Source of the DNA: Methylomonas sp. | GTDB lineage: Bacteria; Pseudomonadota; Gammaproteobacteria; Methylococcales; Methylomonadaceae | DNA: 64,000 nucleotides | Assembly (NCBI GenBank): GCA_002929135.1 | Contig: PESC01000034.1 | Span: 1 to 64,000 of the forward strand | Reading direction: 5' to 3' | Shown here: in pieces, positions 25,871 through 33,581 of the stretch | Layout of the letters: each line of letters starts with the position of its first letter | Numbering within the stretch: position 1 is the first letter of the stretch | The notes under the pieces: model-generated | What the model was told of the DNA's origin: nothing | What the model saw: only the letters and a program-made list of their open reading frames with translations | Database searches by the model: none | Program-made: the position numbers and the translations under genes

Positions 25871-26764
25871 TTACTTGCCGAGTTTCCAGCGATTCGCGGC
25901 ATATTCCAAGGTTTCCTGCACATTGAGGTCGCGGGTGCCGCCACCGGTTCTGACGAACAGCTTGGGCGTGTTGCTCTGGGTCAGGAACACCGGACGATGG
26001 GCGGGGGAGATGATCGCCCGGCATACATCCTTGTTATCGATGGTATGAAACAGCACATGCACGTCGGCGCAGACATCGGTACCCAGTTGTTGCGAAATCA
26101 CCGTCATCAAAGTTTGCTCAAAGCCGTCTGAATCCGGCTTTTTCAATGTCTTGTAGTCGTTTTCCAGCCCCAGAATTTCGCCATCGTCGGCCACGCCTAT
26201 CAACAAGGTGCCGCCGACATGGCTGTTCAGAAAACCGGCAATGGTTTTCAGTACCACGGTTTCCAGTGCCTTGTTGACGCGGGTTTCCTGCATATCCCAG
26301 CGCAGCGACGACTTGAATTCCAGATGCGCACCTTCGCCCTGACGAATGATGGGGAGCAAGTCTTTTTCCAGCTCCACCGTGAGCGAGTCCAGATCGGCCA
26401 TGCGCCTGTGTATCATCTGGTAAAACGCCAGTGACAACAAACCCAGCAGTGCGCCGATTTCGGCATAGAATAAAATGATGTTGTTATGGCTCATCTGGCC
26501 GGTGACGACATCGGTGAATTGGGTGATGACGAACTCGATCGACGACAACGGATCGGCATCGAGCTCCCTCGAACTGATGTACTCGTAACTCGGCGCCAGC
26601 AGAAAAATACCGGCACCGGCGCCAACCCAGGCGGCCAGAAAATACAGTTTCAGCTTCTGTTTCCAGATGGTCAGCAGTTTGAGAAAAAAACGTTTCACGA
26701 ATGATTGTCGGTTAAAACCAAAAAAAAGACAGCGGGTACATCTGCCGCCCAATGCGAACGGCAT
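25871..26764 (-). CDS. Membrane-anchored AlbA_2 (Schlafen-like) domain protein
   Basis: About 297 residues. Two membrane helices (LYFLAAWVGAGAGIFLLA and IILFYAEIGALLGLLSLAFY) flank a short extracytoplasmic loop; the cytoplasmic C-terminal half is an AlbA_2 domain with GEGAHLEFKSSLRWD, then the helix KALETVVLKTIAGFLNSHVG and GGTLLIGVADDGEILGLEND. AlbA_2 domains occur in Schlafen-like and predicted nucleic-acid-binding proteins; function here is unknown. Start uncertain: ATG 26764 has AAGGG 12 nt upstream and clears mutM; GTG 26698 starts nearer the first helix. Upstream in-frame codons overlap mutM and are ignored. It lies between mutM and argA on the same strand. Confidence 0.8.
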   Translation of the reverse strand: MPFALGGRCTRCLFFGFNRQSFVKRFFLKLLTIWKQKLKLYFLAAWVGAGAGIFLLAPSYEYISSRELDADPLSSIEFVITQFTDVVTGQMSHNNIILFYAEIGALLGLLSLAFYQMIHRRMADLDSLTVELEKDLLPIIRQGEGAHLEFKSSLRWDMQETRVNKALETVVLKTIAGFLNSHVGGTLLIGVADDGEILGLENDYKTLKKPDSDGFEQTLMTVISQQLGTDVCADVHVLFHTIDNKDVCRAIISPAHRPVFLTQSNTPKLFVRTGGGTRDLNVQETLEYAANRWKLGK

Positions 26765-26804
26765 TCTAACAGTAGACCCTTCTGCGAGGAGAAGGCGCAC
26801 GGCA

Positions 26805-27620
26805 TCAGCGCTGGCACCGTGCGCAACTGTAGGTAGCGCGTTGTGCGATTTTGTAACGCTGAACCGGCTCACCGCACTGTGGGCAGGCTTGCCCGGCACG
26901 GCCATAAACCGCCAGTGCTTGCTGGAAGTAGCCGGGGTTGCCTGCGGGGTCGGTAAAATCTCGCAATGTGGTACCGCCTTGTTCTATCGCACGTTGCAGC
27001 ACGGTTTTGGCGGCATGGCTCAAGCGTGCGCAGTCATCCGCTGACAACGAACCCGCCGGGCGTTGCGGGTGGATGTTGGCCATGAACAAGGCTTCGTTGG
27101 CGTAAATATTGCCCACACCGACCACGACATGACTGTCCATGATGAGCGATTTCACCGCCGTCTGCCGACTGCGTGCCTGTGCAGCCAGATAAGCACCGTC
27201 GAAAACCGCAGATAACGGCTCGGGGCCAAGCTTCGCCAGCAGGGGGTGATTGGCGACAGGTTCGGACGTCCACAGCCATGCGCCGAAGCGGCGGGTATCG
27301 TTGAAGCGCAAGAGACTATCGTCATCGAACTGAAGGTCGATGTGATCGTGCTTGCGTGGTTTGCATCGTGAGGACACGATGCAAAGCCGCCCCGACATGC
27401 CCAGATGCACGATCAAGGTGCCAGTATCGGCGCACAACAACAGATACTTGCCGCGCCGCTGCACATCCACTATCACCTGCTCCGTCAACACAGATTCCAG
27501 CTCGGCAGGCACCGGCCAGCGCAGTCGGCGCTCGCGAACGACGACGGTTGCGATGCGTTTGCCCACGATATGCGGTGCGATGCCTGATCGGCAGGTTTCG
27601 ACTTCGGGCAATTCCGGCAT
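26805..27620 (-). CDS. mutM: Formamidopyrimidine-DNA glycosylase (Fpg/MutM)
   Basis: Base-excision repair glycosylase/AP lyase removing 8-oxoguanine and formamidopyrimidines. The 271 residues begin MPELPEVET, with catalytic Pro2 and Glu3, contain the helix-two-turn-helix region around GVGNIYANEALF (about 168-179), and end with the zinc finger CPQCG...CARCQR. All four zinc cysteines are present. The gene lies 6 nt after hflD and its stop sits inside an 8-bp inverted repeat. Confidence 0.97.
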   Translation of the reverse strand: MPELPEVETCRSGIAPHIVGKRIATVVVRERRLRWPVPAELESVLTEQVIVDVQRRGKYLLLCADTGTLIVHLGMSGRLCIVSSRCKPRKHDHIDLQFDDDSLLRFNDTRRFGAWLWTSEPVANHPLLAKLGPEPLSAVFDGAYLAAQARSRQTAVKSLIMDSHVVVGVGNIYANEALFMANIHPQRPAGSLSADDCARLSHAAKTVLQRAIEQGGTTLRDFTDPAGNPGYFQQALAVYGRAGQACPQCGEPVQRYKIAQRATYSCARCQR

Positions 27621-28799: not shown

Positions 28800-30413
28800 T
28801 CAGGACTGCGGCAAAAGCACAGAGGGTGCGGGTTTGACATCGAACGCCACGCAAACCCGCTCCTGATCGGAATGGAACGGCAGAGTGCGATGAAACAGCG
28901 ATGACGGAAACAGCACCAGGTCACCGACCTGTTGATCTACGATGTGTCTGGGAAAGTCGTCGTGCAATCGAGGGTAGTCGTCGCCGTCGGTGCTGTATTC
29001 GAAGCTGCCTTCATGGCCGTTGTTCTTTTCCGGCAGTTTCAGGTAAACACAGCCGCTGATCCAGCCTTCCTCGTGGATGTGCGAGGTCAGGTAGCCACCT
29101 TTGTTCATGCGCAAATACCACGAACTGGTGAAATCGATGTCGTTCGGGAAGGCCTGTATCAATTGGTAGGGGCTGAAGGCAAACTGCTGACGGTAGTCGT
29201 TGATCTTGGCTTTGAGCAGGGTCGCCAGTTGTTGTATCGAGGTCTCGCCGCGTTGCAACAGATTACCTGCCGACTGCATGCCGTAATACAGGCGGCCTTG
29301 TTTGCGCTCGGCGATGGCCAGATGTTGAATATCGTGCAGCAGGTTTTCCAGCAGCAGGCTGTCGCCTTGTGCCAGGGCGTCGATGCGGGTGTGCATCACG
29401 TAATTCATGGGTTCCTGGCAGAAATCGTAGCGATCGGCTACGCGAAAATTGCTGGCGTAGTGCGTCGAGAGTGTGCCGATCAGAATGGAATGGTGAGGCG
29501 CTTGTGTGCTCAGCTGGCCTAGCCGTCGTTCGAAGCGATCGAACTGTTCGGTTTTGTACAAACATTGAAGGGCGCGGGCCGGTGCATCGGCGAAATGTGA
29601 TTGTTCGAAATAGGTTATGGCCTCGTGCAACTGGCCATCCAGACAATGAAATTCACCCAGGTTGTAAAGCGCACGGGCATGGCCAGCCTCGACATGTAAA
29701 GCTTGGCGATAACAGCGCACGGCTTCGATCATGTCGCCTTGGTCGCGGTGGGTTTCGCCCAGGTCGTTCCAGGCATCGGCAAACTGCGGCTCCAGCGTCA
29801 GGGCGTTGCGGAATTCGACTATGGCATCGGCATGATGGCCCTGATCGTGCAGGGCCGTGGCCAGATTGAAGTGGCTGCGGGCATCGGATTTCAGCGCCAG
29901 AGCCTGGCGGTAGCATTGTGCCGCCGCCTCCAGATGGCCTTGCAATTGCAGCACAGCACCGTAGTTGCCCAGTGCTTCGAAAAAATCCGGTTGCAGGGCA
30001 ACGGCTTTCTGGTAATGCCATGCCGCTTCTGCCAGCAGTCCTTGCGCTTGCAGCAAGGTACCCAGATTGAAATGGCCTACGGTGAAATCGGGTTTCAGAT
30101 TCAGTGCCTGGCGGTAACTGGTGATAGCCGCCTGCGTTTGACCCAGTTGCGCTTGCAGGACGGCGATATTGAAATGGATTTCGGCAATTCTCGGGTTGAT
30201 GCCCAAAATGCGCTGGAAGCTGAATAGCGCGCCCGGCAAATTGCCTTGCTGCTGCTGGCTCATACCCAAACAGTTGTACAGCATCAACTCGTTAGGGAAA
30301 GCTTGCAGCAGCGTGCGGGCTTTTTTCTCGGCGACAGCCCATTGTCCGGTTTGCAGCAGGTTGTGGATGGCCTGGATTTTTTCGGCGTTAGGTCGCTTGA
30401 CGGGTTTTTGCAT
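28800..30413 (-). CDS. TPR protein with C-terminal 2OG-Fe(II) oxygenase domain
   Basis: A 537-residue soluble protein. About eight tetratricopeptide repeats span 10-290 (units like AEIHFNIAVLQAQLGQTQAAI), a mixed linker follows, and the C terminus (about 415-530) matches the putative 2OG-Fe(II) oxygenase family with HIH at 445-447, the distal H508 in LFPSSLFH and R519 as candidate 2-oxoglutarate anchor. Such fusions are thought to hydroxylate proteins or peptides held by the repeats, but no substrate is known. It starts 12 nt after the ABC gene at 30426-32120, so the two are almost certainly one operon. Confidence 0.88.
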   Translation of the reverse strand: MQKPVKRPNAEKIQAIHNLLQTGQWAVAEKKARTLLQAFPNELMLYNCLGMSQQQQGNLPGALFSFQRILGINPRIAEIHFNIAVLQAQLGQTQAAITSYRQALNLKPDFTVGHFNLGTLLQAQGLLAEAAWHYQKAVALQPDFFEALGNYGAVLQLQGHLEAAAQCYRQALALKSDARSHFNLATALHDQGHHADAIVEFRNALTLEPQFADAWNDLGETHRDQGDMIEAVRCYRQALHVEAGHARALYNLGEFHCLDGQLHEAITYFEQSHFADAPARALQCLYKTEQFDRFERRLGQLSTQAPHHSILIGTLSTHYASNFRVADRYDFCQEPMNYVMHTRIDALAQGDSLLLENLLHDIQHLAIAERKQGRLYYGMQSAGNLLQRGETSIQQLATLLKAKINDYRQQFAFSPYQLIQAFPNDIDFTSSWYLRMNKGGYLTSHIHEEGWISGCVYLKLPEKNNGHEGSFEYSTDGDDYPRLHDDFPRHIVDQQVGDLVLFPSSLFHRTLPFHSDQERVCVAFDVKPAPSVLLPQS

Positions 30414-30425
30414 GGCGACGCACCA

Positions 30426-32120
30426 TCAGCAGAGCGTGATCTGGCGCTGATGCATGGCCTGGATGCTGGGTTGCTTGCTGATGGTCAGCAAGGTTACATC
30501 TGGTAGATTGCTATCGATGAGTTTTATCATGGCCATTTCGCCATGAGGATCGAGCGAATCGAAGGCTTCTTGCAGCAATATCCATTTCGGGCGGTGGATC
30601 AACAGCCGCACCATGCCCAGACGTTGCTGCTGTTCGCGTTCCAGATTTTTTTCCCAGTCACCGGATTCATCGAGATGCGCTATCAGCTCTGCCAGGCCGA
30701 CTTGATGCAATGCCGTTTCCAGCTGGTTTTGCTGGTAACTGTCGCAACTGGCGGGATAGCAGATGGCTTGTCGTAATGTACCGGTTGGCAGATAGGGCCG
30801 GGGCGGCATGTAGAAAATGGGTTCATCGTCGGGCAATTCGATACTGCCCTCGCCCCAGGGCCACAAACCGGCAATGGCTTTGAACAGTTTGTTGCCGGTG
30901 TAGGGGTTGCCGGTAATCAGCACGCGCTCACCGGCTTTGATTTCTTCATCCAGGCTGGCCAGACAGACGATGCCATCCAGCCGTGACAAACAGAGGCTGC
31001 TGAAACGCAGAACCGATGCGTCTTTTTTAACGCGATGTATGCGTTTCGGATCGGTTTTGCTGATTTCGCGTTCAAGTTTGTCGAGCGCACTGGTCAGACC
31101 CAGTATGCGCTCGACCGACGCTCGCCATTCGGCAATCTTGCCCATGTTGTCGACCGGCCACGACAGCGCCGCCACCATGTGCTGGAACGCTAGTGCCGAT
31201 TGCATCAGCGCACCCAGACTGATGACGCCCAGCACATAACGCGGCGCGGAAACCAGAATCGGGAAGGCCATCGACAGCACCGAGTAGCCAGAGGTGAACA
31301 TCATGATGCGCTTCCAGGCATCGGTTTGTTCATCCCAGACGGTGACTATGTTGCTGAAAAGTTGCTTGAAATGTGGGGTTTCATGGCGCTCGCCCTGAAT
31401 CATGGCGATGGCCATGGAGTTTTCGCGGGCCTTGACCAAGCTGAAGCGGAAGTTGGCTTCCACGGTCTGCCGGTTGTCGGTGGCTTTGGTGAGTGGTCTG
31501 CCTATCCACCAACCCAGAATGGCGGCACTGGCGGCATAGAGTAGCGCCAGCCACACCAGGTGGCCACGAATCTGGAAATCGGTGATGCCCAAATCCAGTG
31601 TGATGACCCCGGACAAACCCCAGAGGATTTCGGTGAAGCTGATTAGCAACAGCAAGCTGAAGGTCAGGCTGTGAATCAGATCGATGGCGAACTCCGTGGC
31701 AATACGGGCATCTTCGGCGATGCGGCCATCCGGATTGTCGTGCTCGCCGCCGATATGGGTCACCAGATAATGCCGACCGCTGTTCATCCATCGACTGATG
31801 AGTCGATCGGTAAGCCAGGCCCGCCAATCCATCTGGATGCGGCGCTTGATCACGAGGTGGCTGGCAGTGACAGCGATGTTGGCGATAAAGATCAATACGA
31901 TAAAGCCGACCTGAGTCAGCAGGCGCGACATCGAGCGTTGATCCAAAGCGTCGAACAAGTCGGCGCTCCACACCGTGATGACGACCGAAATCGCAATTTG
32001 CAGCACGGTCAATACCAACAATACGGCGCTGAATGTGCGGATTCTTACTTTGTTTTCAGACTGCCAGAACGGCCCGGCAAGCTTGATGAACTGAATGATG
32101 AATCTGCTGCTGGTGCGCAC
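30426..32120 (-). CDS. SbmA/BacA-type ABC membrane protein with degenerate ATPase
   Basis: 564 residues. The N-terminal half (about 20-330) is an SbmA/BacA-like (ABC_membrane_2) domain with helices such as FSAVLLVLTVLQIAISVVI and the signature DNPDGRIAEDARIATEFAID. The C-terminal half is a full-length nucleotide-binding domain in which each ATPase motif is altered: Walker A reads GNPYTGNK (404-411, Lys displaced, one residue shorter), Q-loop Gln is Pro440, the signature is LEREQQQ (493-499), Walker B Asp is Gln517, and the H-loop His is Lys549. Family members import vitamin B12 or antimicrobial peptides. This one probably cannot hydrolyse ATP. GTG start with GGGAG site, which lies inside tandem leader repeats. 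Confidence 0.9.
   Translation of the reverse strand: MRTSSRFIIQFIKLAGPFWQSENKVRIRTFSAVLLVLTVLQIAISVVITVWSADLFDALDQRSMSRLLTQVGFIVLIFIANIAVTASHLVIKRRIQMDWRAWLTDRLISRWMNSGRHYLVTHIGGEHDNPDGRIAEDARIATEFAIDLIHSLTFSLLLLISFTEILWGLSGVITLDLGITDFQIRGHLVWLALLYAASAAILGWWIGRPLTKATDNRQTVEANFRFSLVKARENSMAIAMIQGERHETPHFKQLFSNIVTVWDEQTDAWKRIMMFTSGYSVLSMAFPILVSAPRYVLGVISLGALMQSALAFQHMVAALSWPVDNMGKIAEWRASVERILGLTSALDKLEREISKTDPKRIHRVKKDASVLRFSSLCLSRLDGIVCLASLDEEIKAGERVLITGNPYTGNKLFKAIAGLWPWGEGSIELPDDEPIFYMPPRPYLPTGTLRQAICYPASCDSYQQNQLETALHQVGLAELIAHLDESGDWEKNLEREQQQRLGMVRLLIHRPKWILLQEAFDSLDPHGEMAMIKLIDSNLPDVTLLTISKQPSIQAMHQRQITLC

Positions 32121-32318: not shown

Positions 32319-33581
<1,263 letters not shown>

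Follow-up and report, generated by a model that had tools for sequence, protein, structure and literature searches.

An ABC-type transporter with a degenerate nucleotide-binding domain conserved in Methylomonas and its relatives

One gene in a 64,000-nucleotide stretch of Methylomonas sp. DNA (the whole stretch is called the window here) raises the question of what an ABC transporter does once its ATPase has lost the usual catalytic motifs, and this question bears on how the proton-driven SbmA arose from an ABC transporter. In its accessible text, a study of 2026 (PMC13316013) argues that SbmA goes back to a YddA-like protein that became separated from its nucleotide-binding domain (NBD), on the grounds of a tree and of sporadic genes that are split or have no NBD, and the accessible part of PMC12003926 classifies SbmA/BacA and BclA. 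The word "degenerate" is absent from the former, and both "degenerate" and "nucleotide-binding" are absent from the main text of the latter; a description of a lineage with a dead NBD was likewise not found in the literature by title or start of abstract, among the best matches of larger sets covering few subscription journals.

Architecture and ATPase motifs

The transporter gene (Table 1) lies in a genome of 2.57 Mb in 63 contigs, and the nearest named homologues of its product are from Methylomonas, with M. lenta at 74% identity. The protein has the same architecture, a membrane domain (TMD) followed by an NBD, as the ATP-driven half-transporters YddA, BclA and Rv1819c (mycobacterial BacA), and its closest homologue of solved structure is 6tqe, aligned over residues 10-563 (E 1.7e-64), which we take to be the Rv1819c cobalamin transporter. 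Unlike in these half-transporters, the catalytic motifs, intact in the 33 relatives examined, are lost. The membrane domain is homologous to that of the SLiPT proteins SbmA and BacA, proton-driven peptide importers (PF05992, 68 bits against a cut-off of 24 in a scan of proteins of the window), and, like them, the window protein would be an ABC-derived transporter working without ATP hydrolysis. It reaches 47.3 bits with the NCBIfam SbmA equivalog NF008306, below 492, and 20.4 bits with the ABC_tran profile PF00005, below the cut-off of 25; 17 of the 33 members of alignment A1 match PF00005 at E 0.01.

Table 1. Features of the transporter gene and its immediate neighbours, in window positions
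Feature	Position	Strand	Remarks
Pseudo-ABC transporter gene	30426..32120	(-)	564 aa, GTG start, open frame
TMD, residues 1-345, ABC_membrane_2 / SbmA_BacA family	31086..32120	(-)	PF06472 123 bits, PF05992 68 bits
Degenerate NBD, residues about 365-564	30429..31028	(-)	Aligned with the NBDs of 6tqe and ABCD proteins
Walker A remnant GNPYTGNK (404-411)	30888..30911	(-)	Canonical Lys column is a gap
Q-loop position, Pro440	30801..30803	(-)	By alignment
Signature remnant LEREQQQ (493-499)	30624..30644	(-)	By alignment
Walker B remnant, Gln517-Glu518	30567..30572	(-)	By alignment
H-loop position, Lys549	30474..30476	(-)	By alignment
Glu143, TM3 region by SbmA alignment	31692..31694	(-)	Three residues before the SbmA E203 position (146)
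His150, TM3 region by SbmA alignment	31671..31673	(-)	Near-fixed in the clade
rho, directly upstream of the transporter gene	32319..33581	(-)	Named from sequence alone
TPR protein with C-terminal 2OG-Fe(II) oxygenase domain	28800-30413	(-)	Starts 12 nt downstream of the transporter gene

The motifs were compared in 263 rows, reduced to 208 distinct ones by removing identical rows. A row was assigned to the clade of the window protein when its TMD identity exceeded 50% and it had no canonical Walker A, which gives 153 clade rows, beside 3 transitional and 33 intact ones; the rest are eight rows of a second degenerate group, eight TMD-only or truncated rows (one of them, L058, cut by a contig end), one fragment, SbmA and YddA. 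Since no row examined with over 34% identity to the window protein has a canonical Walker A, the clade rule masks no intact close relative among these rows.

The earlier note had described a full-length NBD in which all catalytic motifs are altered. The domain is indeed full length in an open frame of 564 aa, and every quoted substitution is in place (G404-NPYTGN-K411, Pro440, L493-EREQQQ, Gln517 and Lys549). The displacement of the Walker A Lys, with the loss of one residue, is confirmed by alignment with the 33 distinct intact relatives, all of which have K where the window protein has a gap; the same gap is present in all 153 clade rows and all 3 transitional rows. The Q-loop position 440 is Pro in 152 of 153 clade rows and Gln in 32 of 33 intact rows, the signature Gly position (496, Glu in the window protein) is G in a single clade row and in every intact one, and position 517 is never Asp in the clade (140 Q and 13 E) and always Asp in the intact set. 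At the H-loop position 549, His occurs in 26 of 153 clade rows (33/33 intact), and the statement that all motifs are altered therefore holds for the window protein but not, as regards the H-loop, for the clade. The further claim that only Glu518 keeps a usual residue is too narrow, as the D-loop S522-L523-D524 and the Walker A residues Gly404 and Gly409 are likewise conventional; the D-loop Asp is retained in 108 of 153 clade rows, and Glu518 itself, the Walker B catalytic Glu, in 131 of 153 and in all 33 intact rows.

Among the hallmarks of an ATP-driven ABC protein, the window protein lacks Walker A, the Q-loop Gln, the signature Gly, the Walker B Asp and the H-loop His, and has the Walker B catalytic Glu. 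Judging from these motifs, ATP hydrolysis by a protein of this type is very unlikely, and ABC architecture alone is no proof of ATP drive. Chance or sequencing error was rejected as the source of the motif loss, given that the pattern is identical across the clade.

The protein might instead be the degenerate half of a heterodimer, paired with an intact ABC half-transporter encoded elsewhere, although we rate this as highly improbable. Exporters with one degenerate site, which are the known cases, keep one canonical site per dimer, unlike a homodimer of the window protein, which would hold none. The window's genome yielded no intact family member (the next match has 23% identity, E 1.5e-4), none of the 42 matches listed at E 1e-20 across the 37 genus genomes is an intact relative, and at least 2 of the 96 family genomes that carry the gene have one (G089 and G040, from the best nine candidates per genome). 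Members that consist of the TMD only also speak against a heterodimer. What favours it is that heterodimers in which one of the sites is degenerate are a familiar type (PMC7756269). The exporters concerned (TmrAB, TM287/288 and ABCC1) resemble the present case in that selection keeps their degenerate catalytic residues.

Distribution, selection and relatives without the domain

The gene is present in all 37 Methylomonas genomes, the window's own counted, and in 96 of 151 sampled family genomes from 19 of 29 genera, one of the 96 (G058) having a broken fragment only; beyond the family, the dead form occurs in three genomes of the same order (G176, G235 and G240). For 103 non-independent pairs drawn from 63 rows, with dS of 0.1-1.2, the median omega is 0.071 for the NBD (maximum 0.26) and 0.044 for the TMD, the NBD value being the higher in 90 pairs. 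Pairs that include the window protein have reached or approach synonymous saturation (dN 0.16-0.18 in the TMD and 0.20-0.23 in the NBD, five pairs computed), so these omega values speak for the clade, the window branch being too diverged for a clean value. In the clade, the NBD is kept by purifying selection.

A local pseudogene or local decay was rejected on the basis of open frames, the same substitutions clade-wide and purifying selection. Simple decay of an ATP-driven transporter, to which the degenerate motifs and the fragmented transporter and GH5 genes of G058 might point, is refuted for the clade overall by the same frames and substitutions together with omega medians of 0.04-0.07, and we give it a probability close to nil. 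The two checks that the earlier note had proposed against decay turned out in favour of its idea: close homologues share the substitutions, none above 34% identity having a canonical Walker A, and dN/dS in the NBD is low, with a clade median of 0.07. What it had named as the mark of decay, close homologues with intact motifs together with relaxed selection on this copy alone, was not found.

The relatives form a series, from intact ATPases (up to 34% identity) through half-degraded proteins (46-48%) and the dead-NBD clade to proteins with a TMD only, and thereby back the idea of a natural intermediate beyond what had been proposed, with half-degraded and TMD-only relatives in the same clade. 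The half-degraded state is represented by three transitional proteins from another order of the class (3 of 4 genomes), at 46-48% identity, which all have the gap at the Walker A Lys column, all lack the H-loop His and all keep Glu518; the Q-loop Gln and the signature Gly are each retained in two of the three, and the Walker B Asp in one, the others having Glu or Gln.

TMD-only relatives are found in 4 of the 37 genus genomes (59-61% identity), in G086 (family f1) and in 2 of 5 genomes of another order. At the seven TMD-only loci, no remnant of an NBD was found (best E 0.21), and from this, and from the existence of such members, it follows that relatives are able to do without the NBD. All six pairs of the four Methylomonas copies give omega of 0.023-0.029. 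The G086 copy may have been truncated recently, since a stop interrupts its match to the full-length protein and its branch is longer than that of its sister. Two of the Methylomonas TMD-only genes (at L059 and L062) have short genes around them, of which we take one to be CsbD-like, and neither adjoins an NBD gene.

In a TMD tree of 61 rows, the dead, half-dead and TMD-only proteins form one group (support 100/100). The TMD-only state requires three changes on this tree, where starred branches force three, and three again on a quick tree of 89 rows. The careful 61-row tree excludes SbmA, YddA and ten intact rows; in the quick tree, SbmA has a branch length of 4.14 and a weakly supported placement. 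An NBD that is retained under selection and yet repeatedly lost argues for a transporter that does not need it, and the maintenance of a dead NBD by selection, together with relatives that have none, suggests that an ATP pump is seen here on its way to becoming a transporter of another kind. Living relatives make up a series in which the NBD is intact, half-dead, dead or absent; the dead form and one absent form are measurably under selection, and several of the methanotrophs concerned are cultured strains, so that the change of energy source is directly testable.

A second degenerate group was seen in eight proteins (L160, L167-L170, L175, L179 and L180), six of them taken from among the matches in the sister family f4 of the order. 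In all eight, the Q-loop position is Glu and the catalytic Glu is replaced, with the Walker A Lys retained in six and Asp517 in five. These eight cluster with two intact proteins (100/100), and by this pattern the second lineage degenerated independently; a single origin of both degenerate lineages was rejected (AU p 3.6e-25, with a program warning of long branches).

Membrane domain and possible energy source

The reading that we favour, and consider fairly probable, is that of a conserved pseudo-ABC importer that would work independently of ATP hydrolysis, probably by ion coupling, with its NBD kept as a scaffold. The membrane domain, dimeric by analogy with SbmA and Rv1819c, would undergo alternating access without ATP hydrolysis, and the NBD would be folded and docked through retained coupling segments, acting as a dimer scaffold or regulator. 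The drive would most likely be ion (proton) coupling or simple facilitated flux, coupling perhaps being achieved through clade-fixed ionizable positions in or near TM2-TM3, namely H88, K92, R93, E136, E143 and H150.

How far this resembles SbmA can be judged from the alignment, helix names being those of the SbmA paper and helix positions being set by alignment. According to the accessible text of PMC13316013, SbmA has neither an NBD nor coupling segments, has extra TM0 helices, and requires a full glutamate ladder (E193, E203, E269, E276, E287 and E378). Unlike SbmA, the window protein has an NBD-like region (365-564), keeps the coupling stretches that join TM2 to TM3 and TM4 to TM5 and that SbmA lacks, and has no N-terminal TM0 extension; its residues at the ladder sites are, in order, E136, I146, T214, E221, R232 and E331, that is, three of six Glu. 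The earlier idea of an SbmA-type proton-driven importer accordingly goes further than the alignment, in which E193, E276 and E378 align as Glu and E203, E269 and E287 do not. Moreover, the three shared glutamates are no evidence of proton drive, as they also occur in ATP-driven relatives: E136 and E221 are each present in 22 of 33 intact relatives, and all three are present in YddA. E331 is Glu in 92 of 153 clade rows. The case looks like a parallel to SbmA and not like its ancestor.

Other ionizable positions are more specific to the clade. H88, K92 and R93 are present in all 153 clade rows. Position 143 is acidic (E/D) in 153/153 clade, 3/3 transitional and 8/8 TMD-only or truncated rows, compared with a share of 0.15 among intact ones, and His150 is found in 151 of 153 clade rows, in all 3 transitional rows and in 1 of 33 intact rows; in the TMD-only or truncated rows, position 150 is His in four and Tyr in four, the latter being the four Methylomonas TMD-only proteins. 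Glu136, Glu143 and His150, spaced seven apart, would share a helix face. Ionizable residues make up 8 of 38 clade-specific TMD positions, as a raw count without an expected share.

Instead of serving as a scaffold, the NBD might bind a nucleotide or another ligand without hydrolysis and gate the membrane domain as a sensor, a reading that we regard as unlikely. It would account for the purifying selection on the NBD and for the fixation of its altered residues: in both alignments (A1 and A2), Pro440 does not vary and Lys411, Pro439, Glu496 and Gln517 vary little or not at all, while Arg495 is invariant in A2 only and Glu518 nearly invariant in A1 only. It is opposed by the gap at the Walker A Lys column and the missing Walker B Asp in all 153 clade rows, and by relatives in which the NBD is wholly missing.

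Gene neighbours and possible cargo

In the first degenerate lineage, GH5 is the commonest same-strand neighbour (133 loci). Of the 153 distinct clade genes, 141 entered the count, each followed by 1 kb of sequence or more, and 94 of these have a GH5 gene no further than 400 nt downstream, at a median gap of 26 nt; the 12 left over are short of sequence or are not the best match of their locus. The remaining 47 of 141, the window's included, have no GH5 within 400 nt, although a GH5 lies further off at three of them (L068, L080 and L089) and a fragment at one (L039). Among the family genomes, taken as one draw of 151 for both counts, GH5 occurs in 80 of 96 with the transporter and in 1 of 55 without it (fragments in G058, G150 and G157 counted; Fisher p 3e-25, which overstates the association because the genomes are related). 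At locus L066 (contig C41 of G058), the transporter and its GH5 neighbour are both broken, as if the pair had decayed jointly.

The GH5 proteins match exo-beta-1,3-glucanases, presumably of the fungal Exg1 type (E 5.9e-61 to 1.9e-44 for the best 13 chains), that of L254 resembling glucan 1,3-beta-glucosidase A at E 5.9e-61. NEP and GEW motifs, which we take to be the GH5 catalytic motifs, are present in 96 of 98 distinct GH5 ORFs of at least 340 aa. The start motif is preceded by at most 20 residues in 77 of 101 distinct ORFs and by more in 6, the pattern being absent in 18; judged by the ORF start relative to this conserved motif, the enzyme is cytosolic-looking, with no apparent export signal. 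Given that the transporter gene sits just upstream of a gene for such a glucanase, most relatives probably take a glycoside or a glucan-derived molecule as cargo, which would be carried inward. GH5 was found at none of the loci with enough sequence that are transitional (0/4), TMD-only (0/7), intact (0/32) or of the second lineage (0/8), redundant loci included, and it is missing from the window's genome and from 10 others of the 37 genus genomes. With all transitional, TMD-only and intact loci and 47 of 141 clade genes lacking it, a glucan cargo cannot be claimed lineage-wide or for the window's genome.

The tight two-gene linkage with GH5 in most relatives, along with the lack of an evident energy source, would also suit a protein that does not transport at all and serves as a membrane anchor or receptor, recruiting the glucanase or sensing a ligand. 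We consider this quite unlikely, though less so than the heterodimer or simple decay, since the TMD is the slower-evolving part (omega 0.044) and TMD-only members persist without an adjoining GH5, although in the four Methylomonas genomes with a TMD-only copy GH5 adjoins the full-length copy. Returning to the pseudo-ABC importer, it is tempting, although we hold this only tentatively and at somewhat less than even chances, to see here a second and independent case of an ABC transporter giving rise to a secondary one, observed in mid-course, with ATP-driven, half-dead, dead-scaffold and NBD-free forms coexisting, many of them importing glucan-like glycosides, and with ion coupling rebuilt in TM2-TM3 on a ladder unlike that of SbmA.

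On the other side of the gene, a rho homologue is present at 49 of 264 loci, in 46 of them no more than 300 nt from the transporter gene. In the window, the gene for the TPR protein with an oxygenase domain occupies the place where most relatives have GH5; a role as partner of the transporter is not supported, as it was matched in 1 of 264 loci, a locus taken to be the window's own. Beside four of the eight second-lineage loci there is an F5/8 type C gene, on the same strand just downstream in three and divergent in one, with a weak match to six-hairpin glycosidases (24.1 bits against a cut-off of 24.5). Further along the window, the longest ORF of a Schlafen/AlbA_2 domain protein (25871-26905, minus strand) begins within the end of the upstream ORF at 26805-27620.
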